Under the pieces are notes generated by a model that worked only from the letters and a program-made list of their open reading frames with translations, had not been told where the DNA came from and made no database searches. The translations under genes were made by a program, and so were the position numbers. This document shows, one piece after another, positions 4,826 to 63,218 of a DNA stretch of 64,000 nucleotides. The stretch comes from Paraburkholderia phenazinium (lineage in GTDB: Bacteria > Pseudomonadota > Gammaproteobacteria > Burkholderiales > Burkholderiaceae), in contig NZ_FSRU01000002.1 of NCBI RefSeq assembly GCF_900142845.1, positions 3,100,001 to 3,164,000 on the forward strand, read 5' to 3'. Each line of letters opens with the position of its first letter. Position 1 is the first letter of the stretch.

Positions 4826-5680
4826 ATGAACGATCTCAGTCACCGGGAGCGCTACGAAACACGCCTGAACCGCGTGCTCGAGCATATTTACGATCACCTC
4901 GATGAACCGCTCGATATCGAGCGGCTCGCGCAAATCGCCTGCCTGTCGCCGTATCACTGGCACCGGATCTATCAGGCGATGCACGGCGAAACCGTGGCGT
5001 CGACGGTGCGCAGGTTGCGTCTGCATCGGGCGGCGGGCTATCTGGCGAATGGTTCGATGCCGATTGCAGAGATCGCGGAACGCTCGGGATACAGCAGTTT
5101 GCAGTCGTTTTCGCGGACTTTTCGGGCGGTGTTCGGCATGCCGCCGGCACAGTATCGCAAGCAGGGTACACATAGCCGGTTCAAGCCGGCGTTATCAGGA
5201 GACGGTCAAATGACGACGCGCGAAGTGGAGATTCGGGAAATCCCCGCCATGCAGATTGTGACGCTCGATCACACGGGCTCGTATATGCAGATCGGCAAGG
5301 CGTTCGATGCGCTGGTGGGATGGCTGGCTGCACGCGACCTGCTGTCGCCTGAGATGCGGATGGTGGGCATCTACTACGACGATCCGGGCGTGGTCGCTGA
5401 GGCTGCGTTGCGCTCGAAGGCGGGGGTGGTGTTGGCACGGACGGTTGAGGTAGCTGCACCGGTTGCATTGACGGTGGTGCGCGGTGGGCCGTACGCGGTG
5501 TTACGACACAAAGGACCCTACGCCGACATGGCCGGCGCCTACCAATGGCTATATGGGGAATGGCTGGTGCAGTCGGGACGGGAGGCCGCCGATGCGCCGG
5601 TCTTCGAAGAGTATCTGAACAACCCTAAAGACACGGCCCCGTCTGAGTTGGTGACGGAGATCTGCCTACCGTTGGTCTGA
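4826..5680 (+). CDS. AraC-family regulator with GyrI-like ligand domain
   Basis: A 284-residue regulator. Residues 8-110 are an AraC/XylS double helix-turn-helix (LDEPLDIERLAQIACLSPYH... then IAEIAERSGYSSLQSFSRTF). Residues 130-284 are a GyrI/effector-binding domain (VEIREIPAMQIVTLDHTGSY at its start, EEYLNNP near the end), the layout of Rob/SoxS-like multidrug sensors with a ligand pocket. It is divergent from the ethanolamine permease. Control of that operon is possible, but it does not look like EutR, and a drug or redox response is equally likely. Confidence 0.88.
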   Translation: MNDLSHRERYETRLNRVLEHIYDHLDEPLDIERLAQIACLSPYHWHRIYQAMHGETVASTVRRLRLHRAAGYLANGSMPIAEIAERSGYSSLQSFSRTFRAVFGMPPAQYRKQGTHSRFKPALSGDGQMTTREVEIREIPAMQIVTLDHTGSYMQIGKAFDALVGWLAARDLLSPEMRMVGIYYDDPGVVAEAALRSKAGVVLARTVEVAAPVALTVVRGGPYAVLRHKGPYADMAGAYQWLYGEWLVQSGREAADAPVFEEYLNNPKDTAPSELVTEICLPLV

Positions 5681-6015
5681 GGTCTTTGTCTTGAAGAGCT
5701 CGTTCGCGTCTTGCCAAGCATTTGCGCGCTCTGGCCGCAGCGTAGTGCTGGCCCTGTCTTTGTCTTTCACTGTATACATATATATACGTAGTAATAGTTA
5801 ACAAGGGTCGCCTCTTTCTGTGGATAACTCCGATCTTCACTGACGGATCAAGGCTCTACGGATTCGATAACCCTAGGTGCCGTTCGTGCACAGCCGTCTT
5901 GAGCCAGGGACAACTTTTGACGCGCGTGAACGGCTCGACGTTTTATCAAAGTTCGGCCCACAGGAAGTTAGAGGCTTTATCCCGGAGTTGTCCAGATGCG
6001 CGTGTGGATAACTCG
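5681..6015. other. Convergent intergenic region with two perfect DnaA boxes
   Basis: 335 bases between the ends of two convergent genes, so no promoter is expected. It holds two perfect TGTGGATAA DnaA boxes on the same strand, at 5819-5827 and 6003-6011. There is also an AT-rich alternating stretch near 5771-5803 (TGTATACATATATATACGTA). A near-box TTTATCCCG occurs near 5980. It may bind DnaA; see findings. Confidence 0.45.
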
Positions 6016-10636: not shown

Positions 10637-10742
10637 TGTTGCAGGTGTAGTGACGGATTGGCTGGCGCGTCAAAGGATATCCCGAAATTGCTCGACACCC
10701 CTAAGCATTGACACAGGTTCCTCGCTCGACTATCGTCAGCTC

Positions 10743-10908
10743 GCGGGACAGCGGGTCAAGCTCGCCAAGGGACAGGCAGTCGATGTTCCCGGCACTACGG
10801 GGTTACCCCGTGGATCAGCATGATCTCCGCAGTTCGTCGCATGAGCCCGCGTTGCGCGGTGCGCAAATCAGCTCACGCAGCACCAGACGCGTTGACTCGC
10901 TGGCCCGC
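10743..10908 (+). ncRNA. Candidate retron msr-msd RNA
   Basis: The DNA just upstream of the reverse transcriptase can fold like a retron primer-template RNA. Bases 10743-10759 pair with 10892-10908 over 17 positions with one A-G mismatch and one G-U pair, matching the a1/a2 repeats. The next base, G10760 in an AAGC context, sits where the branching guanosine is expected. Inside are a GGGACA/TGT(T)CCC hairpin (10769-10790) and an ACGGGG-TTA-CCCCGT hairpin (10797-10811). A nested hairpin TGAGC...TTGCGC-GGT-GCGCAA...GCTCA (10842-10875) would be the msd core. The element ends 13 bases before the preferred transcriptase start. Built by eye from pairing; no energy calculation was done. Confidence 0.72.
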
Positions 10909-10921
10909 CTCCTCTAACGCT

Positions 10922-12259
10922 ATGCGCTTATCGTCGCTCCAACACGTTACCTACGCCATCGCCGACGCCATGCTTGCCGGGCCGGCGGAACCTGACTCGA
11001 TTGTCGAGCGCATGACCCGTTGTTTAGGCGGTCGTTCGGAATGGATGCGGGGATTGGCACGCAAGGTTGCGAAGCGTTTCGGCGCGCGCTGGGATAGTGT
11101 CGATCGTAAAGAAGTGTCGATGGTTATTGCAGGCACAGCGGGGTTTGTTGCCGCTTGGCAAAGCGATATACGACCTGTGATCGCGCAGGTGCTGCGCCGG
11201 CCTCCCACGCAACAACCGCCGCCACCGAGTTTGCGCGAGGTCGCGCTGCCGCAGTTGCCGACGCTTGGCGATCTGGCTTCCTGGCTGGAAGTAGAGCCGG
11301 CTGATCTCGAGTGGTTTGCGGATCGCTGGCGTGTCATGCCGCAGAGTGCAGGCACGCCGCTTCATCACTATTCGTACAAGGCAATCGAAAAACGCGACGG
11401 CCGATGCCGGCTGATCGAAATGCCGAAGTCGCGCTTGCGGAGCATGCAGCGCAAGATTCTTCATGGTCTGCTTGAACGGGTGCCGCCGCACGATTGCGTG
11501 CATGGGTTTCGCAAGGGCCGCAATACCGTGACGTATGCGGCGCCGCATGCGGGTAAGGCCGTAGTGGTTCGATTCGATCTTGCGGATTTCTTTGCGTCCG
11601 TGCATGCCCCGCGCGTTCATGCGTTGTTGCGAACGCTGGGATATCCGCAGGAGGTCGCGCGGGCGTTGACTGCGGTGTGTACGAATCGGGTGCCGAGTGC
11701 GCGTCTGCTGGCGGCGGATGTGCGGGGCAAGATGGAATGGCAGGAGCGGCAGCGGTATCGCACGAGGCATTTACCGCAAGGCGCGCCCACGTCACCGGCG
11801 TTCGCCAATCTCTGCGCGTTTCGGCTCGACCTTCGGCTCGCGGGTCTCGCACGTGCGCTCGGGGCCACTTACACACGCTATGCGGACGACCTGGCGTTTT
11901 CAGGTGATGAGGATCTGGCGCGGGTCGTCGAGCGTCTGTCGATTCGTGTCGCGGCGATTGCGCTTGAGGAGGGATTCTCGATCCAGTTCCGCAAGACACG
12001 CGTGATGCGGCGCGGTGCCAGGCAGCACCTGGCAGGGGTTGTGGTGAACCAGCATCCGAACCTGGCACGGAGCGAGTTCGATACGCTCAAGGCGATTCTG
12101 ACGAACTGCGTTCGACATGGCGCCGCTTCGCAGAACCGCGCGGGTCACGCGGATTTTCGCGCCCACTTGCAGGGACGGGTTGCGCAGGCGGTGATGTTGA
12201 ATGCCGCGCGGGGGGCGAAGTTGAAGGCGATTTTTGAGCGGATCGGGTGGTCGGAATAA
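10922..12259 (+). CDS. Retron-type reverse transcriptase with N-terminal extension
   Basis: A 445-residue reverse transcriptase from ATG 10922. The polymerase core carries FDLADFF (metal-binding D219), HLPQGAPTSPAFAN (Q286 region) and YTRYADDLAFSG (YADD, residues 320-323). Next come KTRVMRRGARQHLAGVVVN in the place of the retron VTG motif and a thumb region. Residues 1-130 are an extra N-terminal part, followed by LEVEPADLEWFADRWRV and a KRDGRCRLIEMPKSRLR segment, as in myxobacterial retron enzymes such as Mx162. An in-frame ATG at 10820 would run through the candidate msr-msd RNA, so 10922 is preferred. No toxin gene is linked, so any effector activity may lie in the N-terminal extension. 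Confidence 0.9.
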   Translation: MRLSSLQHVTYAIADAMLAGPAEPDSIVERMTRCLGGRSEWMRGLARKVAKRFGARWDSVDRKEVSMVIAGTAGFVAAWQSDIRPVIAQVLRRPPTQQPPPPSLREVALPQLPTLGDLASWLEVEPADLEWFADRWRVMPQSAGTPLHHYSYKAIEKRDGRCRLIEMPKSRLRSMQRKILHGLLERVPPHDCVHGFRKGRNTVTYAAPHAGKAVVVRFDLADFFASVHAPRVHALLRTLGYPQEVARALTAVCTNRVPSARLLAADVRGKMEWQERQRYRTRHLPQGAPTSPAFANLCAFRLDLRLAGLARALGATYTRYADDLAFSGDEDLARVVERLSIRVAAIALEEGFSIQFRKTRVMRRGARQHLAGVVVNQHPNLARSEFDTLKAILTNCVRHGAASQNRAGHADFRAHLQGRVAQAVMLNAARGAKLKAIFERIGWSE

Positions 12260-12351
12260 AGTGCGTCGACGCTCTCGCGATGCATAGAGCATCACGTCAT
12301 GACCCGGATTTCTCATTCGATCTTTTTGCTGGCATGATGCCCGACAGATCA

Positions 12352-13242
12352 ATGACGCCCTCCAGGTTCATGCTTCTCAAACAACATCAACGATTCGCGC
12401 AACTGATATTCGGGGCTGTCGTGCTAGTGGGCCTGTGCGATGCGCCATGCGCGAGCGCAGCGGCCGCTACGTTGCCCGCGCAAGCCCGAGACCTCCCAGC
12501 CGCCGGCACGACCTGGTGCTACAGCATCGGCGCAGGGCGCGTAACGCCCATGACGCTCACAGGCGTGACATCCAACATTGCGAGCTACGAAGCCGGCGGC
12601 GGTAGTGCGCCGATCAAGATCGACGAACAGGTCGACACCTACTCCACGCTCAACGCCACTCGCCACGGTCAGCGCAGACTCCTGGACTTTCCGGTCGTGA
12701 AGGACAAGCGATGGTCGGACGAGTTCGACGAAACCGTGACTTCGCAACTCGGCCACGACGCGTCATGGCAATACCACTACCATGCAGTCGCGCTAAGCCA
12801 GGTCGGCGCGACACAGAAACTGAAAGTGGGTGCGGGCACCTTCGATACGTTCGTGATCGAGCGGACGACTGCGTGGACCAAAAGCGATCCTCACTCGTCG
12901 AGTGCGATGCTGCACGCGCAACATTGCGACGATGCATCGTGCTCGGTTTCCGGATTCAGCAAGGAAGTGTTCTGGTATGCGCCTTCGATCGGGCGAGCCG
13001 TGTTGCGTGCGTATACGCAAAGCGGTGATTCCAGCTATGTCGCCAATCAAACGCCCGACGACATGCTGCACGACGCCGGGACACTCGTGACCGAGCTGGT
13101 CGGCTATGGCGACAATGCAACGTGTGCGGCGCCCCATGCGTCATTGCAGGCAAGAACGCCATCGAGTCCGTGGTATGGCTTTGCGCTCTGGTCCAACGAT
13201 ACGTGGGAGTTTCTGATGACGCGGGATATGGCGCGGGAGTGA
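12352..13242 (+). CDS. Secreted protein of unknown function
   Basis: About 296 residues. The preferred start leaves a short polar stretch, then a signal peptide (FAQLIFGAVVLVGLCDAPCASAAAATLPA) with a likely cut after CASA. The mature part has repeated beta-like segments, an isolated CDDASC pair and a W-rich end (SPWYGFALWSNDTWEFL). I do not recognise the family. It lies 92 bases after the retron enzyme on the same strand, but its export signal makes it an unlikely retron effector. Alternative starts at 12334 or 12370 cannot be excluded, as none has a strong ribosome binding site. Confidence 0.65.
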   Translation: MTPSRFMLLKQHQRFAQLIFGAVVLVGLCDAPCASAAAATLPAQARDLPAAGTTWCYSIGAGRVTPMTLTGVTSNIASYEAGGGSAPIKIDEQVDTYSTLNATRHGQRRLLDFPVVKDKRWSDEFDETVTSQLGHDASWQYHYHAVALSQVGATQKLKVGAGTFDTFVIERTTAWTKSDPHSSSAMLHAQHCDDASCSVSGFSKEVFWYAPSIGRAVLRAYTQSGDSSYVANQTPDDMLHDAGTLVTELVGYGDNATCAAPHASLQARTPSSPWYGFALWSNDTWEFLMTRDMARE

Positions 13243-35823: not shown

Positions 35824-36360
35824 GTGGGCAAGTATTCGGAAGAGACGAAGCTCGCGGTCGTCGAGGATTATTGTTCGGGAACGGCGGGGCTCAAAGTCGT
35901 TGCTCGCCGCCACGACGTGAATGTTGCGTCACTACGCAAATGGGTGGCTGGTTATCGTTCGCATGGTGCTGCAGGCGTCAGGGAAAAGGTGCGGGCTACC
36001 TATAGCTTAAAATTCAAGCTGTCGGTGTTGCGACGCATGCGTGACGAGCGCCTTTCCTATCGGCAGACCGCCGCGCTGTTTGACATTCGCAACTTCAATA
36101 TTATCGCTACATGGGAGCGCAACTACGATCAGGGCGGACTGGAGGCCTTGTCTCCGCACGCTTCCTTACGCCGCAAGAAGATGACAAAGCATCAGACCAC
36201 AGAATCCCGGGGATCATCAAAGGGCGACGCCAGGCGCACTCGCGACGAATTGATAAAGGAACTGGACAATCTCCGCATGGAGAATGCCTATCTAAAAAAG
36301 CTCAATGCCTTGGTTCAAACGACCGCGCAGCAAGCGCAGCGCAAAAAACACAAATCGTGA
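35824..36360 (+). CDS. IS3-family OrfA (helix-turn-helix protein)
   Basis: A 178-residue protein from a GTG start with two helix-turn-helix units, YSEETKLAVVEDYCSGTAGL...VNVASLRKWVAGYR and FKLSVLRRMRDERLSYRQTAALFDI...IIATWERNY, then a leucine-zipper-like coiled coil (RDELIKELDNLRMENAYLKKLNAL). It recognises the element ends. The frame ends at an A-rich slippery run CGCAAAAAACAC (36340-36351), where -1 frameshifting would give the OrfAB transposase. Confidence 0.88.
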   Translation: MGKYSEETKLAVVEDYCSGTAGLKVVARRHDVNVASLRKWVAGYRSHGAAGVREKVRATYSLKFKLSVLRRMRDERLSYRQTAALFDIRNFNIIATWERNYDQGGLEALSPHASLRRKKMTKHQTTESRGSSKGDARRTRDELIKELDNLRMENAYLKKLNALVQTTAQQAQRKKHKS

Positions 36361-37193
36361 TCGAGCTAAGGCACCAATACCCTCTTGCCGGTCTGCTCAA
36401 GCTAGCAGGCTTGGCGCGCAGCACTTTCTATTATCAACAGAAGGCGCTGCAGGTGGCCGACAAGTATGCTGACCTCAAGGCCCGGATCAAGACGATCTTC
36501 GACAGGCATAAAGGGCGATATGGCTACCGTCGCATCACCGCTACGATTCGGCAAGAGGGCCTCGCCGTCAACCACAAGACGATCCAGCGTCTAATGGTTG
36601 ATTTGCGACTGAAGTCCTGCGTGCGAGTCAAGAAGTATCGCGCCTACAAGGGCGAGGTAGGAAAGATTGCGCCAAATGTTCTCGAACGTCAGTTCGATGC
36701 AGAATCGCCGAACCAGAAGTGGGTAACAGACGTGACCGAATTCAACGTTCGTGGGGAGAAGCTCTATCTCTCTCCAGTCCTTGACCTTTACAACGGTGAG
36801 ATCGTTGCATACCAAATGGCACGACGTCCTTTGTTTGACATGGTAGGCACTATGCTGGAAAAAGCATTCGGGCGGCTCAAGCAGAGTGACAAGCCAATCT
36901 TACATTCCGACCAAGGCTGGCAATATCAGATGGCGGTGTACCGGCGCCTTCTTGAGAACCGTTCGATCACACAAAGCATGTCGCGCAAGGGCAACTGCTA
37001 TGACAATGCCGCCATGGAGAGCTTCTTCGGCACCCTCAAAGCGGAGTTCTTTTACCTCAACAAATTTGATAGTCTTGACGAACTGGAGGTCGGCATAAAG
37101 GACTATATCCGGTACTACAACAATGACCGTATCAAGCTAAAACTGCAGGGCATGAGTCCCGTAAAATATCGAACTCAATTCGGTCAGGCGTAG
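36357..37193 (+). CDS. IS3-family OrfB transposase (DDE integrase)
   Basis: The catalytic half of the transposase, in the -1 frame relative to OrfA. GTG 36357 overlaps the OrfA stop (GTGA), and the frame is open further upstream, as expected for fusion by frameshifting at the preceding A6 run. Conserved parts: GLARSTFYYQQ, HKGRYGYRRITATIRQEG, WVTDVTEF (D), ILHSDQGWQYQ (D) and NCYDNAAMESFFGTLKAEFFY (E). Intact DDE triad and full length suggest the element may be active. Confidence 0.9.
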   Translation: MIELRHQYPLAGLLKLAGLARSTFYYQQKALQVADKYADLKARIKTIFDRHKGRYGYRRITATIRQEGLAVNHKTIQRLMVDLRLKSCVRVKKYRAYKGEVGKIAPNVLERQFDAESPNQKWVTDVTEFNVRGEKLYLSPVLDLYNGEIVAYQMARRPLFDMVGTMLEKAFGRLKQSDKPILHSDQGWQYQMAVYRRLLENRSITQSMSRKGNCYDNAAMESFFGTLKAEFFYLNKFDSLDELEVGIKDYIRYYNNDRIKLKLQGMSPVKYRTQFGQA

Positions 37194-37227
37194 CCATCTA
37201 ACCGCCCAACTTCTGGGGGTCAGTCCA

Positions 37228-37818
37228 ATTTTAGTGGATACGATGCTCCCAAGACCTTCAATGCAACTCAAGACGGGATGGCTAGGCGCTTACGTTGAAT
37301 CTGCGCCGACAGGCTATAGAAGCGGTGCGGACTTTCGGCTGCGCGTGTGAGCGGCAAATGTCCTAAGGCCCTGGCGATTCGGCGACAGCCGTCGACGAAG
37401 AGACGCAAGTCGGTGGCCGTCGTTGCAACGGTGATTTATTCACCGCAGAAAATGCAGAGAATACACTGGCTATTCGCCGCATGCGGCTCGTTCTCATGCG
37501 ACGTCTGTCAGGCCGCGTTCGCCTCAATGTAGGGACGAGATGTGTGCAATGTTTTATTGTTCATCGAACGTCGCATGCTGTTGCACAAGCCCTAACAATG
37601 CGAGAAAATATATCGGATACCTAACAACATTATCGGTGACCGAAGCACCTTGCGCTTGGATCGTATAACAGAGCGACTAGCTGATTCGAAGTTAAACAAG
37701 GACGCGAAGGCGCCGAGCCGAGCATCAAGGAGAACGAGGAAGGAGACGAAGCGCGGGACGCATGGGCTGCCACCCATACGATCCGCTGACCGCAACCAGC
37801 TCATACTAGGAGTTGATC
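37228..37818. other. Non-coding junction between IS3 element and symE
   Basis: 591 bases in which I see no supported gene. It is less GC-rich than the core genome and probably made of old element debris. The last bases hold the AGGAG ribosome binding site of symE at 37808-37812. An antisense RNA to symE could start here but none can be identified. Confidence 0.4.
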
Positions 37819-38064
37819 ATGGCTGACGCCAATCATAAAGCAGTTGCGCCTGTTACCCAACGCGTCTTGACCATTTCGTCACAAAGACGCCCACGATCGA
37901 TGAAAATTTTCGCACCGTCTCATATCGAGTTTTATGAAGACTTGCCGCCAGCGCCTTGGATTCGGTTTTCGGGGCATTGGCTTGAACACGCCGGATTCGA
38001 AATTAATAAACGAATCTTGGTGGATGCGCAAAGAGGTCGGTTAGTCATAACGCCGTTCAAATGA
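37819..38064 (+). CDS. symE: SymE-like type I toxin
   Basis: An 81-residue protein of the SymE family: VTQRVLTISSQRRPR near the start, then PPAPWIRFSGHWLEHAGFEINKRILVDAQRGRLVITPF, the AbrB-like core with W.SG.WLE.AGF. In E. coli SymE is an SOS-induced, RNA-associated toxin repressed by antisense SymR and encoded beside a restriction-modification locus. Here too it adjoins a restriction-modification unit. The ATG at 37819 has AGGAG six bases upstream. The antisense partner is not visible by eye. Confidence 0.82.
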   Translation: MADANHKAVAPVTQRVLTISSQRRPRSMKIFAPSHIEFYEDLPPAPWIRFSGHWLEHAGFEINKRILVDAQRGRLVITPFK

Positions 38065-38071
38065 GATGGCA

Positions 38072-38105
38072 GGACACTTGCCGGACTAACACGAGTCAAG
38101 TGTCC
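38072..38105. repeat. Inverted repeat between convergent genes
   Basis: GGACACTTG and CAAGTGTCC form a perfect nine-base stem around a 16-base loop, just after symE and before the end of the convergent HNH endonuclease gene. It lacks a T-run, so a termination role is uncertain. Confidence 0.55.
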
Positions 38106-38227
38106 CACCAACGTCGCAGTTCGGCTCCGCGGCAAATCCACAATAGTCCATCCGCAAGGCCTAGATGAATCGCAACCTTGGATGGTCGGCGCTGGCTTTC
38201 GGACGGGCTTTGCGTCGATCGCCTGTT

Positions 38228-39208
38228 TTATAACCAGTCGTAACGATCAGCAAAAAACTCGTATCTTGCCTCTAGCATGGCGCGCCGCGGTGACTGTTGT
38301 GGTAGCGCAGGCTCCGCCAACACCGGGAACGTTTTATCCAAGAAGGCACCTAAAGCGGGATCTTCCTCAAGGCCTCTTGCGATTTCCTCATTGAAGACGA
38401 TATTCCGAGTTTCTGGATCCACCCAAATGTGGTGTGCATCGAAAGCGGCATGATGATTATGGCAAAGCGCCAAACCATTCCACACGGCATCCGGTGCCCC
38501 CTCGGCTGCAACCGGGTTGATGTGAGCGCCAACGACCAGTCCCGCACCAATCCCGCACATCGCGCAGCGGTGCCCATACGCATTCAGAACGTTCCGAGAA
38601 AACGCGTAGTGCCTAACCAACACAGCGGCCGCCCTGCGGACGCGCGTCGCGGAAGCATCGTTTTCGTCATCGATTAAGCCGGAGGCAATGGCTGCACTAG
38701 ATATTGCGTCGTCAATGCTAGAACCCAAGTCTGGTGCTTCCAAGCCATTGGCTAGCACGGCGATGAAAATCGGAAACATGCTCGGTCGAAAAGCATATAT
38801 TTTCTCCCCACTCCCCGACTGATAGACTGCCCACCCGGTTGTTCGAGCTTGACCGGCCACTCGAGTGTCAAATAAAACCGAAAAGCGAGCTTCTCGTCCA
38901 ATTCGACTCGTGCCATCCGTTGCGACCAGCAGTGTCGGATGGCCATCTTCCTCCCAGAGACCAAGCAGAATTGGAATAGCGCCGGCACGAGCCGCTACAG
39001 GTGAGCGATTTGCGGGGTTTTGAAAGCGAAATTCCCATTCCCTACGGTTGTGTGGACTAACCGTTGAAACATGCAACGCGATTTGGCGGATCTCCCCGTC
39101 CGGCAGCGCTACCGTGACGTCCCCCGGCCATCCGTCACCAAGTGCCGTAGGCACCGCCGCGCTACCAATAAGTCGACAAATTTTTACTAGCAACTGTACT
39201 CGCGTCAT
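38228..39208 (-). CDS. HNH restriction endonuclease
   Basis: A 326-residue protein with a C-terminal HNH domain: YGHRCAMCGIGAGLVVGAHINPVA (C215, C218, H229), VWNGLALCHNHHAAFDAHHIWVDPET (N244, H250, H253). Its N-terminal 190 residues probably recognise the DNA sequence. The gene lies 44 bases downstream of the cytosine methyltransferase on the same strand, so the two form a type II-like restriction-modification pair. The specificity cannot be predicted. Confidence 0.86.
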   Translation of the reverse strand: MTRVQLLVKICRLIGSAAVPTALGDGWPGDVTVALPDGEIRQIALHVSTVSPHNRREWEFRFQNPANRSPVAARAGAIPILLGLWEEDGHPTLLVATDGTSRIGREARFSVLFDTRVAGQARTTGWAVYQSGSGEKIYAFRPSMFPIFIAVLANGLEAPDLGSSIDDAISSAAIASGLIDDENDASATRVRRAAAVLVRHYAFSRNVLNAYGHRCAMCGIGAGLVVGAHINPVAAEGAPDAVWNGLALCHNHHAAFDAHHIWVDPETRNIVFNEEIARGLEEDPALGAFLDKTFPVLAEPALPQQSPRRAMLEARYEFFADRYDWL

Positions 39209-39252
39209 CTCTGGTCCATTTTTCTAATTGCCCGATGCAAGTATATCGCGCC

Positions 39253-41130
39253 TCATGCGACTATGCTGTCCGTAACGCGACGTTCCAGTTGCGCTTTGTC
39301 CGAGAGCAGAGGAAACGGATATGTGCAGAGAACGCCCAATTGTCGAATCGTATTATGCGTATCCGGCGTTCTAACATCCCAGCGATGAGACCGCATATCG
39401 AGAATTACCTCAGTCACTTCCTCTTTCTTCACATTGAGCGCCGCAGCAGCGAATTCCACTGTAACAAATTCACCACAGTTTTCGGAGCAACCAAAAAACT
39501 CAATGGCACGCTCTAACTTCGATTTTCTAGTTGAATTTATTTCAGTAGCTATCTTTACGGTATCACCTCGATTCGCATAATGACCGTAAATATCGATCAA
39601 ACTAAAAAACTGGCTGTTTGCTTTAAGCGCCTCTTCAATTACAGCCCAAATTCTGAAAACATCATCCAGATCGGAGAATTTGGCATCCACTGTTACCGAA
39701 TCGATGTGCAACAAGTATTTTGACAATCCGAGCAAAGATATTTTGAGGTCACGAGATCTACGTGTGACGGCGCTAACCGGGGTAATCTTCAACGAAATAG
39801 CATCTCTTTTCTGCGAAAATACAACGCTGTAATAATTCCGATCTAGCTCGAATTGAGACAGATTTTCGGCCCGTTGACGTGAAAAAAGCCCCTTAAAACC
39901 TACGAAGTAAGAGCTTGACCGTTCAAGTATATTTTCGTCCAAGATTTGTACGTTCGGAAAGCGAGCAGCAACTTCCTCAGCAGCACGCTCTTTGAAGAGT
40001 ACCGTTCTTTCGCGCTGCCGCTGACGAAAGGTCGATTTGAATTCGGCGCCTCGCTTCACATATGTAAGTTTCCGCGAAGGGCGAAGTAATTGCTCACGCA
40101 CGGATGTCGCAATTGTCTCGGCCAGTCGAGGAGGGACGGAATTCCCTACCTGTTCCATTATTTTCGCGTATGTTCCGACTATTTCATAATCGTCGGGAAA
40201 CGTTTGCAACCGCTTTAATTCATCAACCTTGAAATGACGATTCTTCCAATGAAATGGGCCGGTAAACTTTCCGGGCTGAGCCTTAATGGTCCGACTAGGC
40301 GTGCGTCGATCCACCTTATAGAGGAAATCGTGAAATTTAGAACGCCAAGCGAAATAAGGTTTCGGGTAACCCATTTCGCGAGTAAAAAAGGCGTAATTCA
40401 GCCCCTCGGGAACCAAGGATAAAAGGTGCCCATAGAGGCCATCCAACTCGTGATACGGCTCTTCGTCGTCTTGAAGATCGTCGATTGCGTTGAACACACT
40501 TACCAGGGGTTGACCGTCAGTAGAGTCAGGCCCATGAGTCGGCATAGGAAATTCAAAATTTCCCTCTCCTTCCTTGTACCCGACAATGATCAAGCGCTCC
40601 CGGTGCTGTGGAACGCCGTAATCGGCGGCGTCCAACACTTCTGCTCTCAATTCATAGCCTAATTTATGAAACGCTTCGCGTATTTCTTTCCATGGGCCGC
40701 CATCGTTCGCGCCCGGGAGCCCATACACGTTCTCGAAAACAAACACCTTTGGTTGGATCGCCTTAAGAATCTTGCAATACGACTCGAATAGCCGCCCTCT
40801 CGCGTCTGAGGTTCCTAACACTCCTCCTGAACGCCGACCAGCAGCGGAGAACGTCTGGCAAGGAGGCCCGCCGATGACGCACTCGATTCCTTGATCGACA
40901 TAGATAGCCGGATCAAATTCCCGAATATCTAAATTATGGACTTTTGTCGTTGTGGAAATATATTTGCCGATTTTTTTATTTGCGTCCAACGATTTTGAAT
41001 ATGCTGCTTCAATTTCGACACAAGCAACAACGTTAAATCCTGCCTGGTGAAATCCAATATCCAAGCCACCCGCACCAGTAAAAAGGCTTAAGGTTTTAAT
41101 TCCCTCATTATTTTTACGCACTTTATTCAT
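39253..41130 (-). CDS. DNA (cytosine-5) methyltransferase with C-terminal extension
   Basis: A 625-residue enzyme. Residues 1-350 are a C5 methyltransferase: motif I TLSLFTGAGGLDIGF, motif IV GGPPCQTFSAAGR with catalytic C91, motif VI FENVYGLPG, motif VIII HRERLIIVG, a target-recognition region, and motifs IX-X RLQTFPDDYEIVG and QVGNSVPPRLAETIA. Residues 350-625 are an extra domain that I do not recognise. ATG 41130 overlaps the TGA of the small upstream gene and has AAAGGA six bases before it, so translation is coupled. The gene is much richer in A and T than its surroundings, indicating recent acquisition. Confidence 0.92.
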   Translation of the reverse strand: MNKVRKNNEGIKTLSLFTGAGGLDIGFHQAGFNVVACVEIEAAYSKSLDANKKIGKYISTTTKVHNLDIREFDPAIYVDQGIECVIGGPPCQTFSAAGRRSGGVLGTSDARGRLFESYCKILKAIQPKVFVFENVYGLPGANDGGPWKEIREAFHKLGYELRAEVLDAADYGVPQHRERLIIVGYKEGEGNFEFPMPTHGPDSTDGQPLVSVFNAIDDLQDDEEPYHELDGLYGHLLSLVPEGLNYAFFTREMGYPKPYFAWRSKFHDFLYKVDRRTPSRTIKAQPGKFTGPFHWKNRHFKVDELKRLQTFPDDYEIVGTYAKIMEQVGNSVPPRLAETIATSVREQLLRPSRKLTYVKRGAEFKSTFRQRQRERTVLFKERAAEEVAARFPNVQILDENILERSSSYFVGFKGLFSRQRAENLSQFELDRNYYSVVFSQKRDAISLKITPVSAVTRRSRDLKISLLGLSKYLLHIDSVTVDAKFSDLDDVFRIWAVIEEALKANSQFFSLIDIYGHYANRGDTVKIATEINSTRKSKLERAIEFFGCSENCGEFVTVEFAAAALNVKKEEVTEVILDMRSHRWDVRTPDTHNTIRQLGVLCTYPFPLLSDKAQLERRVTDSIVA

Positions 41131-41336
41131 TTCCATTCCTTTGTCGCGACTGTGCCAGCATCCGATTCGTCGAAAAAACTTGTTTGCAAGCTGTCGCCGT
41201 GACTCGCAACGAAGTCGCGCATAAAATCGCGCAGCACCTGTGCCGCAGTCCTGTCCTGCGCTTTGCACGCAGATAAAAATTCTTGCCGCAATCGCGGATC
41301 AAGACGGATACGCAGTCCGCATGAATTGCTCTCCAT
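41127..41336 (-). CDS. Small RHH-like regulator of the restriction-modification operon
   Basis: A 69-residue protein MESNSCGLRIRLDPRLRQEFL...DRTAAQVLRDFMRDFVASHG. The pattern (beta strand LRIRLDP, then two helices with TAAQVLRDFMRDF) is that of ribbon-helix-helix repressors. ATG 41336 has GAGGT five bases upstream; a start at 41366 would add ten residues and run through the operator. It overlaps the methyltransferase start by ATGA. A perfect inverted repeat covers its own promoter, so it probably represses the operon and thereby times methylase and nuclease expression. Confidence 0.75.
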   Translation of the reverse strand: MESNSCGLRIRLDPRLRQEFLSACKAQDRTAAQVLRDFMRDFVASHGDSLQTSFFDESDAGTVATKEWK

Positions 41337-41572: not shown

Positions 41573-44092
<2,520 letters not shown>

Positions 44093-44158
44093 TCAAAACA
44101 CCATAAAAACGCCAAAGGGGCGCTGCGCCCCTTGGTGTTCTTCTTGATGTTGGACGCG

Positions 44159-45262
44159 TTAGATGCGCATCGGCATCACCACGTATTTGAATTCGTCGTT
44201 CTCGGGAATCGTGATCAACGCGCTGGAGCTGGCATCACCCAGGCTCACTTGCAACATGTCGACCTTCAGGTTTGCCAGCACGTCGAGCAGATACGTGACG
44301 TTAAACCCGATATCGACGCTGTCGCCGGTATACGCAATTTCCAGTTCTTCCTGCGCTTCTTCCTGGTCCGCGTTGGTGGACATGATCTTCAACTGGCCCG
44401 GCTCGATGATGCAGCGCACGCCCTTGAATTTGTCCGAGGTCAGAATGGCCGCACGTTGCAGCGAACGCTGCAGTTCTTCGCGGCCAATCAGGAACTGGTT
44501 CTTGTGCGACTTCGGAATCACGCGCTGGAAGTCCGGGAATTTCCCTTCCACCAGCTTCGACACCAGTTCCACCTGACCGAAGGTGAACTTCACCTGGCTC
44601 GGCGCGATGTCGATCTTCAGCGTGTCGTCGATGTCTTCCAGCAAACGCTGGAGTTCCAGAATCGTCTTGCGCGGGATGATCACTTCCTGGCGCGCAAACG
44701 AGCCTTCAATCTTCATGGACGAGAACGCCAGACGATGACCGTCCGTCGCGACCGCCATCAACTGGTCGCCGTCCACCACCAGCAGCATGCCGTTCAGGTA
44801 GTAGCGAATGTCCTGCTGGGCCATCGAGAAATGGACCATGCCGAGCAGTTGGCGGAACGTCTTCTGGGGAACCACCAGGTTCGCGCCGAAGTCTTTAGCT
44901 TGAGCGACCGTGGGGAATTCGTCCGCGGCCAGCGTCTGCAGCGCAAAGCGGCTCTTGCCGGATTGCACGGTGAGGCGCTTGTCGTTCAGCGTCAGCGTGA
45001 CCTGGCCGTCAGGCATGGCACGCAGGATGTCCAGCAGCTTACGCGCCGCTACCGTTGTCGCAACCGAATCGCCGCCCACGCCGAAGTCGCCGTGCGTGGT
45101 GATCTGAAGCTCGAGGTCGGTGGACAGGAACGACACGTCAGGGCCGTTCTTGGTAATCAGCAAGTTGGCGAGGATCGGCAACGTATGGCGGCGTTCGACG
45201 ATGCCGCTCACGGTTTGCAGCGGCCTGAGGAGGTTATCGCGTTCGGTCTTGACCAGTTGCAT
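44159..45262 (-). CDS. dnaN: DNA polymerase III sliding clamp (beta subunit)
   Basis: DnaN, 367 residues from MQLVKTERDNLLRPLQTVSGIVERRHTLPIL, the ring-shaped processivity clamp. Three repeated clamp domains are visible; the family ending FKYVVMPMRI is intact. A longer frame from 45307 adds 15 non-conserved residues. 114 bases separate it from gyrB. Confidence 0.97.
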   Translation of the reverse strand: MQLVKTERDNLLRPLQTVSGIVERRHTLPILANLLITKNGPDVSFLSTDLELQITTHGDFGVGGDSVATTVAARKLLDILRAMPDGQVTLTLNDKRLTVQSGKSRFALQTLAADEFPTVAQAKDFGANLVVPQKTFRQLLGMVHFSMAQQDIRYYLNGMLLVVDGDQLMAVATDGHRLAFSSMKIEGSFARQEVIIPRKTILELQRLLEDIDDTLKIDIAPSQVKFTFGQVELVSKLVEGKFPDFQRVIPKSHKNQFLIGREELQRSLQRAAILTSDKFKGVRCIIEPGQLKIMSTNADQEEAQEELEIAYTGDSVDIGFNVTYLLDVLANLKVDMLQVSLGDASSSALITIPENDEFKYVVMPMRI

Positions 45263-45576
45263 AGAGTTCCTTCGTTGATGTGACGGCCTGCGCGCCTCGC
45301 TCGGCATCCTGCACGCGGCCCCGGCCCCCGCCGGCGCTACGCTGCGCCAGTCACGGCGTACATCCGCCCCAAGCCGCCGGGCGGTTAAACCTGTATTGTG
45401 CCTGAAAACAGAACCGCTCCCCTAAAATGGGGGCGAGTTCCGAAATAAACAGGTCGATTTTCCCCGCTTTTTGCCCAAACTTTAGGCAACACCGCCGCGA
45501 CCGCGCGGTTATCCCGCAAATACCCTGCACTCACCCCGAATTCGCCTGAGGGCGTCGCCTCGAGGCCAGCCCAGGA
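45263..45576. other. dnaA-dnaN spacer
   Basis: 314 bases with no gene. It contains GC-rich hairpins near 45316-45385 and one partial DnaA box (GGTTATCCCGC near 45507), but no perfect box. Probably the dnaN promoter and dnaA terminator region. Confidence 0.5.
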
Positions 45577-47160
45577 TCAGCCCTTCAACGTCTGTTCAAG
45601 CACGTGCAGTTCGTGGTTCAACTGCGCATCCGTGCCGCGTTCGGCGGCGATCTTACGCACCGCGTGCAGCACGGTCGTGTGATCGCGCCCGCCAAACAGC
45701 TCGCCGATTTCCGGCAAGCTTTTCTGCGTCAGTTCCTTCGCCAGATACATCGCAATCTGACGCGGCCGCGCAATGTTCGCCGGCCGCTTCTTCGAATACA
45801 TGTCCGCGACCTTGATGCTGTAGAAATCAGCCACCGTCTTCTGGATGTTTTCCACCGAAATCTGGCGGTTTTGCACCGTCAGCAGGTCTTTCAGCGCTTC
45901 TTTCGTCAGTTCGATGGAAATTTCGCGGCCGTGGAACTTCGAATACGCGAGGATCTTGCGCAGCGCGCCTTCCAGCTCACGCACGTTCGAGCGCAGATGC
46001 TTGGCGACGAAAAACGCCACGTCCTCATTCAGGCTCACGCCTTCGGACTGCGCCTTGCGCATCAGGATCGCGACGCGCATTTCCAGCTCGGGCGGCTCGA
46101 TCGCCACCGTCAGGCCGGAGTCGAAGCGCGAGATCAGCCGGTCGTCGATGCCCGAAATTTCCTTCGGGTACGTATCGCTCGTGATGATCACCTGCGCCTT
46201 GTTCGCCACCAGCGCTTCGAACGCGTAGAAGAACTCTTCCTGCGTACGCGACTTGCCCGAGAAGAACTGAATATCGTCGATCAGCAGCAGGTCGAGCGAG
46301 TGGTAGTAGCGCTTAAAGTCGTCGAACGCCTTGCGCTGGTACGCCTTCACCACGTCGGACACATACTGTTCCGCGTGGATGTAGCGGATCCGCGCGCCGG
46401 CCTTGTCCATCAGCAACTGATTGCCGATCGCATGGATCAGGTGAGTCTTGCCGAGGCCCACGCCGCCATACAGAAACAGCGGGTTGTACGAGATGCCGGG
46501 GTTGTCCGCCACCTGGATCGCGGCGGCGCGCGCCAGCTGGTTGGCCTTACCGGTCACGAAATTGTCGAAGGTCAGCACCGGGTTGAGCTTCGAGCGCTCG
46601 TACATCGAATCGCTCTCGGCGTTGCCTTGCTGCGCGGCGCTCTGGCCCGGCCGCCAAGTACGGCGCGCCGCAGCGGCTTCGTTGGCGTCGAGGCTGGGCA
46701 GATCGAGGTCGCCGCCGTCGTCATGATTGTGCTGTTGCGCGCCATGACCGGCGTTCGCGCCCTGCCCCGCGCCATTCGCGCCGTGGGTCCGGGCGGCGTG
46801 TGCGGCCTGCACCGCGCCGACGGCCGCGTCCACCGCAGCCGTGCCGCCGTTGCCGGCGAATTGCGACGGACGTTGCGGCGCCGGCGCAGAAGCCGCCGCG
46901 CCGCGCATGCCGGCCTTGGGATCGAGGACAAACTGGACGTCGACCGGCACGTGCCAAAAGTCGCGTGCCATATCGGAAATGCGGCCGGAAAACTGGCTCT
47001 TGACCCAGTCAAGCTTGAAGCGGTTGGGCGCAGCGATGCTCAGCGTGTTCGCCGCCGCATCGAAGGCAACCGGGGCCAACGGTTTGATCCACGTCACGTA
47101 CTGCTGGGGCGTTAGCTCACGCTCTAGCAGTGCGGAACAGTGTTGCCAGAATTCGTTCAT
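45577..47160 (-). CDS. dnaA: Chromosomal replication initiator DnaA
   Basis: DnaA, 527 residues from [28 protein letters not shown] (domain I). A long low-complexity linker rich in Ala, Gly, Gln and His follows (residues about 95-190, typical of Burkholderiaceae). The AAA+ domain has Walker [18 protein letters not shown] and Walker [14 protein letters not shown]. Domain IV carries the box-binding signature [17 protein letters not shown]. An open frame continues upstream to 47340 without similarity. Confidence 0.98.
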
Positions 47161-47542
47161 CAAGTTGCTGTCGTTATGTTTGCACGGCGAGCCGCCGACG
47201 CCCCTGTTGCAGATACACAACAAGGCCCTGAGCGGCCAGGCGGAACGGCTCCAGGCGCTTGTGCCACAAGGGTTTGCGGGGCAAGCGGGCCGGAGCGGCG
47301 TGCAGGATTTTTGGGAAGTAGGACGAGATTCTACCGCCAAAACAACCAGGAAAGGGAGTTATCCACAGGGACCGATCAAACCTCCGCCATGAGCCCAGCC
47401 TGTGGAATACGTCGCTAAACTATTGACGACCAAAAGAAAACCGGTTTAAATAGCGGGTTCCGCGAAAACCAATTTTTGAACCACCGGCCATTGCACTTTC
47501 CGCGATGCTCGCGCGGTTAATTCTCTGCCAAGTGAGAGCAAC
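47161..47542. other. Probable part of the replication origin (dnaA-rpmH spacer)
   Basis: Divergent spacer of 382 bases between dnaA and rpmH. It holds one perfect DnaA box, TTATCCACA at 47359-47367, followed by an AT-richer stretch with TTTAAAT and AACCAATTTTTGAACC (47421-47485) that could unwind. It also serves as promoter for dnaA and rpmH. Box number is low, so I call this origin region with moderate confidence. Confidence 0.55.
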
Positions 47543-47677
47543 ATGAAACGTACTTACCAACCTTCCGTTACCCGTCGCAAGCGCACCCACGGCTTCCGCG
47601 TTCGCATGAAGACCGCTGGTGGCCGTAAGGTCATCAACGCACGTCGCGCGAAGGGCCGCAAGCGCCTCGCCATCTAA
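47543..47677 (+). CDS. rpmH: Ribosomal protein bL34
   Basis: A 44-residue protein [18 protein letters not shown]...[19 protein letters not shown], the complete, highly basic bL34 of the large ribosomal subunit. AGTGAGAG lies upstream as ribosome binding site. It precedes rnpA in the conserved rpmH-rnpA-yidD-yidC order. Confidence 0.98.
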
Positions 47678-47700
47678 GGCTGGCGAGCGGATTGCGCGCT

Positions 47701-48180
47701 ATGTCCGATGCCCGCGGCAGCGCGGGAACGGCAGGAGCGCCGCAACAGGGCTCGGTTCCGTTGCGAGCGCAAGCCGCCTTCCCCAAAGCCGCAAGGCTGC
47801 TAAAAACGGATGAATTTTCATCCGTTTTTCGTTTGCGCCCGTGGCGCCGCACCGCACACTTCGTCGTGTACGCCCGGCCCACCGGCAATGACGCGCGCTT
47901 GGGCCTCGTGATCGGCAAGAAGTATGCGCCGCGCGCGGTCACGCGTAATCTGGTGCGCCGTCTCGCGCGTGAAGCCTTCCGGCTGCGCCGCGCGGAGTTC
48001 GGCGGTTGGGACGTGCTGCTGCGTTTGCACACGCGCTTCGACAAGAAGGCTATGCCGGGCGCCTCGTCGCCGCCGTTAAAGGCGTTGTGCCGTAGCGAAA
48101 TAGAGGAGCTGCTCAACAAGGCAGCACGCGAAATTGCCCGTCGTGAGGCGCCGCCCGCGGATGCGCCTGCGACCCAATGA
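47701..48180 (+). CDS. rnpA: Ribonuclease P protein component
   Basis: RnpA, the basic protein subunit that helps RNase P RNA process tRNA 5' ends. 159 residues from ATG 47701: [53 protein letters not shown] (the RNR signature) and [12 protein letters not shown]. The N-terminal 28 residues and the Pro/Ala-rich tail are longer than in E. coli, as usual for Burkholderiaceae. Confidence 0.95.
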
Positions 48181-63154: not shown

Positions 63155-63218
63155 CAAAAAAAAGCCCGCTCTCAGGGAGCAGGCTGAATCCATATCAGGA
63201 GGAGACATGGAGGAGACA
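63155..63218 (-). ncRNA. Candidate small RNA with two anti-Shine-Dalgarno motifs
   Basis: Read leftward: a promoter TTGCGT (63248-63253), 17 bases, TATAGT (63225-63230). A predicted transcript of about 64 bases starts near 63218. Its 5' part holds two tandem TGTCTCCTCC repeats (63209-63218 and 63198-63207), complementary to ribosome binding sites. It ends in a hairpin AGCCTGCTC-CCTGA-GAGCGGGCT (63163-63185) and eight T residues, a textbook rho-independent terminator. No protein gene lies on that strand in the interval. Expression is not shown. Confidence 0.68.

Follow-up and report, generated by a model that had tools for sequence, protein, structure and literature searches.

A retron with an N-terminally extended reverse transcriptase and no linked toxin gene in Paraburkholderia phenazinium

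INTRODUCTION

Well-studied retrons have an effector (PMC12548924), and they are read as toxin-antidote systems in which the reverse transcriptase (RT) and its multicopy single-stranded DNA (msDNA) restrain the linked effector. What RT and msDNA do alone is an old question that goes back to the first retrons, which were found in myxobacteria. Excerpts of PMC6868368 describe the myxobacterial retron RTs (Mx162, Mx65, Sa163 and Ne144) as having an extended N-terminus of unknown function, and several myxobacterial retrons as inferred to be vertically inherited. Retron-Bth1 of Bacillus thuringiensis is presented in PMC12548924 as having no obvious effector and an unclassified RT.

Here, we analyzed a 64,000-nucleotide stretch of the Paraburkholderia phenazinium genome (NZ_FSRU01000002.1, positions 3,100,001 to 3,164,000 of the forward strand; the window). 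The original prediction placed a retron with an N-terminally extended RT and no linked toxin gene in this window, and suggested that the extension might be the effector or that the retron might act without one. Among the titles and abstracts covered, which did not include the main classification and census papers, no paper on the present retron family was recognised.

RESULTS

The msr-msd RNA has the anatomy of a retron RNA. The elements of the RNA gene and of its upstream region are as follows.

10708..10736, + strand: sigma-70-type promoter-like site, TTGACA-17-TATCGT (6 bases before a1; 10/12 matches)
10743..10908, + strand: msr-msd RNA gene, a1 to a2 (53 distinct sequences, covariation)
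10743..10759, + strand: a1 arm (16/17 positions pair with a2; 98.1% of cells paired, double-side changes in 4/15 counted pairs)
10760, + strand: candidate branching guanosine in TCAAGC (directly 3' of a1; role by analogy)
10769..10789, + strand: msr hairpin 1 (6 pairs, 85.1% of cells paired, 4 pairs with double changes; the weakest helix)
10795..10813, + strand: msr hairpin 2 (8 bp, 3-nt loop; 100% of cells paired, 2 pairs with double changes, the 4 inner pairs being demanded by the search pattern)
10839..10878, + strand: msd outer hairpin, 10839-10846 with 10871-10878 (98.7% paired; double changes in 4/7 pairs)
10852..10866, + strand: msd inner hairpin, 10852-10857 with 10861-10866 (99.4% paired; double changes in 3/6 pairs)
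10892..10908, + strand: a2 arm (basis as for a1)

The a1/a2 pairing had been predicted at exactly these positions. It includes one G-U pair, and its sole mismatch is A-G (10748 with 10903). When all placements of 17-nt arms in the window were counted over 31 gap lengths, 7 of 1,977,986 reached 16 pairs, a1/a2 among them. The candidate branching G was likewise present as predicted: TCAAGC (10756-10761) was found in 40 of the 41 rows of an alignment built without regard to the motif, and the odd row, L111, lacks it because its RT is frame-broken and the cut was therefore misplaced. TCAAGC is invariant in the later 53-row alignment, for which the search pattern had demanded it.

Retron RNAs are described in the excerpts of PMC6868368 as having one to three msr hairpins of about 7-10 bp plus an msd hairpin. 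As predicted, the present RNA carries two msr hairpins, of 6 and 8 pairs, and an msd hairpin that is nested (7 outer pairs plus 6 inner ones), and the G right after a1, expected in an AGC context, lies in AAGC. A 171-nt stretch folds at -76.1 kcal/mol (z -2.6 relative to shuffles). No Rfam family reached its gathering score at the retron site. Elsewhere in the window, on the minus strand at 63156-63218, the Betaproteobacteria toxic small RNA (RF02278) matched with 77.2 bits (E 7e-14). The tip of the msd has two perfect 20-nt matches in the same genome (G000 C2 1211620-1211639 and 1214110-1214129), in opposite orientation and 2.5 kb apart. The promoter-like site is weak alone (1 found versus 0.5 expected in shuffles), and its TTGACA is kept in 10/10 rows of the first alignment.

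The RNA stems covary among relatives. The ncRNA sequence pattern matched 102 of the 109 scanned loci (all except L008, L010-L013, L043 and L071) and yielded 53 distinct sequences, with several loci representing the same genome twice. The pattern fixed TCAAGC, the msr-hairpin centre and GTTG, so that 8 of the 42 counted pairs were held; the first a1 letter that it fixed had to be a purine. RNAalifold predicted 34 pairs from the 53-row alignment, and 13 of these changed on both sides. Within the 42-pair structure, 96.9% of 2,222 cells were paired compared with 91.3% in shuffles (0 of 500 as high), and 17 pairs changed on both sides in 125 cells compared with shuffled means of 8.1 and 36.3, shuffles overstating independence since the rows are related. 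Sliding the partner by 1-3 columns, a control that keeps the relatedness and favours the alignment-derived structure, lowered the pairing to 39.5-44.8%. None of the 17 doubly changed pairs is among the 8 pattern-held pairs; when the latter were excluded, 1,729 of 1,798 cells (96.2%) were paired. Two of the 4 doubly changed pairs of the a1/a2 stem changed in 17 and 24 rows, and one pair of the msd outer stem did so in 23 of 53 rows. Covariation of the a1/a2 stem in homologues, the check set beforehand for the prediction, was found across 53 relatives.

The RT is of the retron group. The coding features are as follows.

10922..12259, + strand: retron RT, 445 aa (PADLOC RT_other, 8e-148; Pfam RVT_1, 3e-22; nearest solved structures are retron RTs)
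10922..11212, + strand: N-terminal extension, residues 1-97 (five-helix domain at residues 3-80)
11264..12256, + strand: RT core, residues 115-445 (structure comparison)
11879..11890, + strand: YADD catalytic motif, residues 320-323 (invariant in 97 rows)

The RT begins 13 bases after a2, the predicted distance, and its ATG at 10922 is kept in 10/10 rows. A start at 10820, which would give a 479-aa reading, is unlikely because it lies inside the ncRNA, whose length varies among relatives (164-172 nt). Pfam matched nothing in the protein other than RVT_1. The protein is a retron-group RT with a YADD core. Region X reads YAAPH (residues 205-209), with A and H kept and N replaced, and in two Planctomycete relatives it reads NAKPH; NAXXH occurs in 14 of 16 validated retrons, and the two outliers differ at the N residue (PMC6868368, excerpts). 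The start of region Y reads LAG (residues 370-372) instead of the VTG given in the PMC6868368 excerpts, with the G kept, and among the relatives LAG, ITG, VCG, VTG and VAG were found. Two more distant RT matches lie in the same genome (G000 C1 1620509-1621315 and C2 2466379-2466639).

The dN/dS of the RT core was 0.08-0.20 (9 of 66 loci chosen), and the RT is thus under purifying selection. With this and the covarying RNA stems, the comparison of sequences argues that the locus is a genuine and intact retron. That it is instead a decayed, no longer active retron that formerly had an effector is very improbable: there is no effector gene and some relatives have broken copies, but the ORF and ncRNA are intact here, dN/dS is low and covariation has been maintained.

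The N-terminal extension holds a compact five-helix domain with no recognisable fold. The predicted surplus of about 130 residues was about right relative to short retron RTs. It amounts to about 121 residues compared with the Ec78 RT, in which residue 28 aligns with residue 183 of the 479-aa reading (149 of 445), and to about 97 residues compared with the extension-less relative L011. A model of residues 1-90 alone had a pLDDT of 92.7 and a pTM of 0.84, and structure searches with the five-helix domain gave matches at noise level. No PADLOC profile matched residues 1-97 alone; since residues 1-135 match RT_other and RT_outgroup, that match comes from residues 98-135. A search with residues 1-104, with candidates limited to proteins of about 57-182 residues, returned 6 proteins only, which by length, name and identity resemble pieces of the same RT family.

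The extension changes more quickly than the RT (mean identity 0.47 versus 0.74 in 66 rows), and its dN/dS was 0.14-0.41 in the 8 loci measured, with 0.14-0.20 in six comparisons. Invariant residues are few in the extension, and its conserved residues include no polar catalytic set. It is present in 66/66 close rows of the protein alignment, the rows having been picked from full-length matches, which suggests that its role may be more than dispensable. The extension diverges in the Planctomycete relatives.

Either the extension or the RT core can be lost without the other. Ten loci were read piecewise, bearing in mind that single frame changes could stem from draft-assembly errors. Three of them (L039, L048 and L160) keep the extension in open frame and have a frame change behind it in the RT. 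The converse was found at L047, where an intact ncRNA is followed directly by ATG and the RT core, at L043, where a degenerate ncRNA precedes a 349-aa core starting from GTG, and, outside the ten, at L011 (358 aa), all without the extension; L071 has an RT core with neither ncRNA nor extension. The other copies are L159 (residues 5-190 only), L007 (residues 1-264 only), L027 (a stop within the extension, the remainder open) and L072 (a stop plus frame changes).

These losses bear on the suggestion that the five-helix domain is an effector in cis, which RT and msDNA would hold inactive until phage interference frees it to stop growth. The domain is compact, confidently modelled, under purifying selection and faster-evolving than the RT, and its search matches appear to belong to the same RT family. 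Fused effectors are found in other retron types, whose RTs carry Toprim, TIR or protease domains that presumably act in this way (PADLOC profiles RT-Toprim, RT-TIR and RT-Protease). However, the extension lacks a polar catalytic set, its structure matches are at noise level, it stays open beside the broken RTs of L039, L048 and L160, and the RT persists without it in L043, L047 and L011. Such independent loss is a poor fit to a simple toxin held by an antidote. The suggestion is thus weakened, and we regard an effector in cis as unlikely; a retron acting without an effector fits better.

No gene family recurs downstream of the retron across genera in the loci compared. We compared 24 same-genus loci with 17 others (15 from other genera, 2 from the same genus). 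The 3' flank is present in 40 of these 41 loci, as the same-genus locus L112 ends at the RT. Among longest-first ORFs on the same strand within 400 bp, no family exceeded 4 loci, with JetA (Wadjet) in 3/24 same-genus loci and an H-NS-like gene in 4/17 others. Because longest-first calls hid genes under long spurious ORFs, ORFs in all frames within 1.5 kb downstream were also compared. No family occurred there in more than 4/24 same-genus loci, and none was shared across genera in the loci examined. The widest same-genus families have 4 members each (L081, L084, L086 and L110, at 55-1398 bp; L075-L078, on the opposite strand). The window's own downstream ORF (12247-13242) had no match at any other compared locus.

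A recurrent downstream gene as the effector was rejected, no family being shared across genera in the loci examined. As far as examined, the predicted absence of a linked toxin gene therefore holds in the 40 of 41 loci with a 3' flank; neither a linked effector gene nor a recognisable fused domain, as in the effector-bearing types I-XIII, was found. The Planctomycete relatives L012 (4016-4900) and L013 (5065-5640) have in common a membrane-like gene that follows the RT at 138 and 60 bp, respectively, and is a possible effector in that lineage.

The partner or effector might lie away from the RT, in trans or loosely linked. Most described retrons are reportedly tripartite (Mestre et al. 2020), and 11/17 others (L095-L105, one genus) have a gene, H-NS-like by eye, about 300 bp behind the RT. 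Its recurrence is read as shared location because the L095-L105 flank is collinear in every frame, and it is not among the downstream families common to the same-genus loci. The two genera have different neighbourhoods, and the relatives extend to metagenome-assembled genomes (MAGs) of Acidobacteriota and Planctomycetes. To our knowledge, known retron effectors are linked or fused, and we consider a partner elsewhere rather improbable.

The retron is patchily distributed and occupies a variable chromosomal spot. The RT was found in 33 of the 144 same-genus species (about a quarter) and in 30 of the 249 species of a draw from the family, which overlaps the same-genus one (4/25 genera). Of 14 named relatives, 8 are Paraburkholderia and 1 is a Burkholderia sp.; further relatives are in the Acidobacteriota and Planctomycetes MAGs. 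Four plasmid records have a relative (3 Burkholderia plasmids of 0.88-1.26 Mb and 1 from Tsukamurella), and one phage record has a distant partial match only.

The 5' side is often common among same-genus loci. It has an AraC/GyrI-type gene (window 4826-5680, by eye) followed by the element below.

5778..6011, + strand: conserved noncoding DnaA-box element, not part of the retron (230-300 bp, upstream in many Paraburkholderia copies)

In 13/24 same-genus loci, the RT start is at most 1.3 kb from a DnaA-box pair; in three further ones, including the window, the distance is 4.3-6.6 kb. L082 has one DnaA box, and in L075 and L077 the AraC-type gene is about 8.8 kb away; no DnaA-box pair was found within the stretch examined in L088-L092 and all 17 others. 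The AraC-type gene is present in 26 of 58 genomes, 11 with the RT (some broken) and 15 without. Ten of the RT-less AraC-type loci were read: no RT follows the gene, and 7 have the DnaA-box element. Since the gene and the element also occur in RT-less relatives, the retron fills one of the slots at a variable spot.

Wadjet genes lie near 6/24 same-genus copies, downstream in four and upstream in two (L073, L075, L077, L080, L083 and L085). The sets are JetA-D in five loci and JetC + JetD only in L080, with one representative of each named. Wadjet is also at the spot in the RT-less relative L151.

The near-constant position of many same-genus copies beside the same chromosomal element, together with the strong purifying selection, would suit a domesticated or non-defence retron that has a regulatory role or is just inherited quietly; the same has been suggested for those myxobacterial retrons that are passed on vertically. 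Yet only 33 of the 144 same-genus species have the RT, several copies are lost or broken, and the retron sits where other genes come and go. We regard such a role as decidedly improbable.

Other features of the window were also noted. The DnaA-box element carries the TATACGTAGTANNAGTTAACAAG module and is conserved in retron-bearing and retron-less relatives. With at most 2 mismatches, the module occurs in 3 places of the 8.5 Mb genome: the element at 5778-6011, G000 C2 3191276-3191298 and 3194554-3194576. About 85-89 kb separate the latter two copies from the element, and both lie close to the lowest GC skew in the 424 kb examined. The element resembles an extra copy of part of oriC and is perhaps a second origin-like or DnaA-titrating site. 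The replication-origin gene neighbourhood (41573-48180: gyrB, dnaN, dnaA and an rnpA-like gene, all named by eye except dnaA, which Pfam identified) lies within the window, about 35 kb from the retron. A lower-GC island at 35824-41268 has, by eye, IS3-like transposase ORFs, an HNH-type protein and a C5-cytosine-methyltransferase-like ORF, and is likely a mobile restriction-type system.

DISCUSSION

The original prediction stood in the retron identity, the absent linked toxin gene and the extended N-terminus, and was weakened in the extension as effector. We favour, with a confidence only just on the probable side, the reading that this is an intact retron likely making branched msDNA, and that RT and msDNA form a predicted two-component anti-phage complex without a toxin gene, the N-terminal helices probably being accessory. 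An anti-phage role is suggested by the patchy presence, the variable spot and the defence neighbours, which are usual for defence genes, the neighbours being a circumstantial sign. Several points speak against this reading. Well-studied retrons have an effector, so that an effector-less one would be unusual; 11 loci of one other genus have the H-NS-like gene downstream, if by shared location; Wadjet also lies at the spot in the RT-less L151; the 17 other loci show no DnaA-box pair; the extension is present in all 66 close rows; and some copies are broken, so the system can be lost.

The two-component complex might work as follows. One transcript from the promoter-like site, starting near a1, would carry the ncRNA and the RT. 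Pairing of a1 with a2, which the covariation shows, would present G10760, and by analogy with known retrons its 2'-OH would prime reverse transcription (2'-5' priming), which would start beside a2, run back across the msd hairpin and yield an msDNA of very roughly 60-70 nt. The msr hairpins would keep the msDNA bound to the RT. A phage that disturbs the RT-msDNA complex would trigger the response, and the output would be delivered by the RT complex itself or by a partner from the host, since no gene recurs beside the retron across genera in the loci examined. From the natural losses, the five-helix domain would dock or sense rather than kill alone.

More tentatively, and with real doubt, the locus may represent a retron lineage that is complete without a toxin, occurs throughout Paraburkholderia and Burkholderia and has relatives among Acidobacteriota and Planctomycetes. 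In this lineage the RT-msDNA complex would be the machine, and the five-helix domain, found only in this RT family, would be a built-in sensing or output module. The combination of selected RNA and RT, no shared effector and natural losses of the extension makes a clean test case for what RT-msDNA does alone.

Comparison with known retrons places the locus, which lacks a linked toxin gene, in a class that is known but has been little studied. The best PADLOC profiles, RT_other (PDLC02949, 8e-148) and RT_outgroup (PDLC03740, 1e-139), cover nearly the whole protein and carry no described function or effector; the full-length RT_other alignment begins at residue 6, whereas residues 1-97 alone match neither profile. 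RT_XIII, the next best typed profile, is far below RT_other (5e-93), its match beginning only at residue 136 of the 479-aa reading, and no accessory genes are shared across genera here. For the RT core, the closest solved structures are those of Ec86 and Ec78 (Foldseek 7.6e-21, 7v9x; phmmer 1.8e-27, 7v9u), but their RTs are shorter N-terminally and their solved complexes have separate effector proteins.

With the myxobacterial retrons the locus has in common the extended RT N-terminus (about 97-121 extra residues here), a likeness by description in the excerpts; unlike theirs, its presence is patchy, and the predicted msDNA is shorter than the 162 nt of Mx162. Retron-Bth1 is similar as a retron without an obvious effector. 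It differs in being extrachromosomal and interrupted by a group II intron, and its RT-DNA has been shown, whereas the msDNA here is predicted. If the reading that we favour is true, the present retron works differently from most of the retrons that have been studied.
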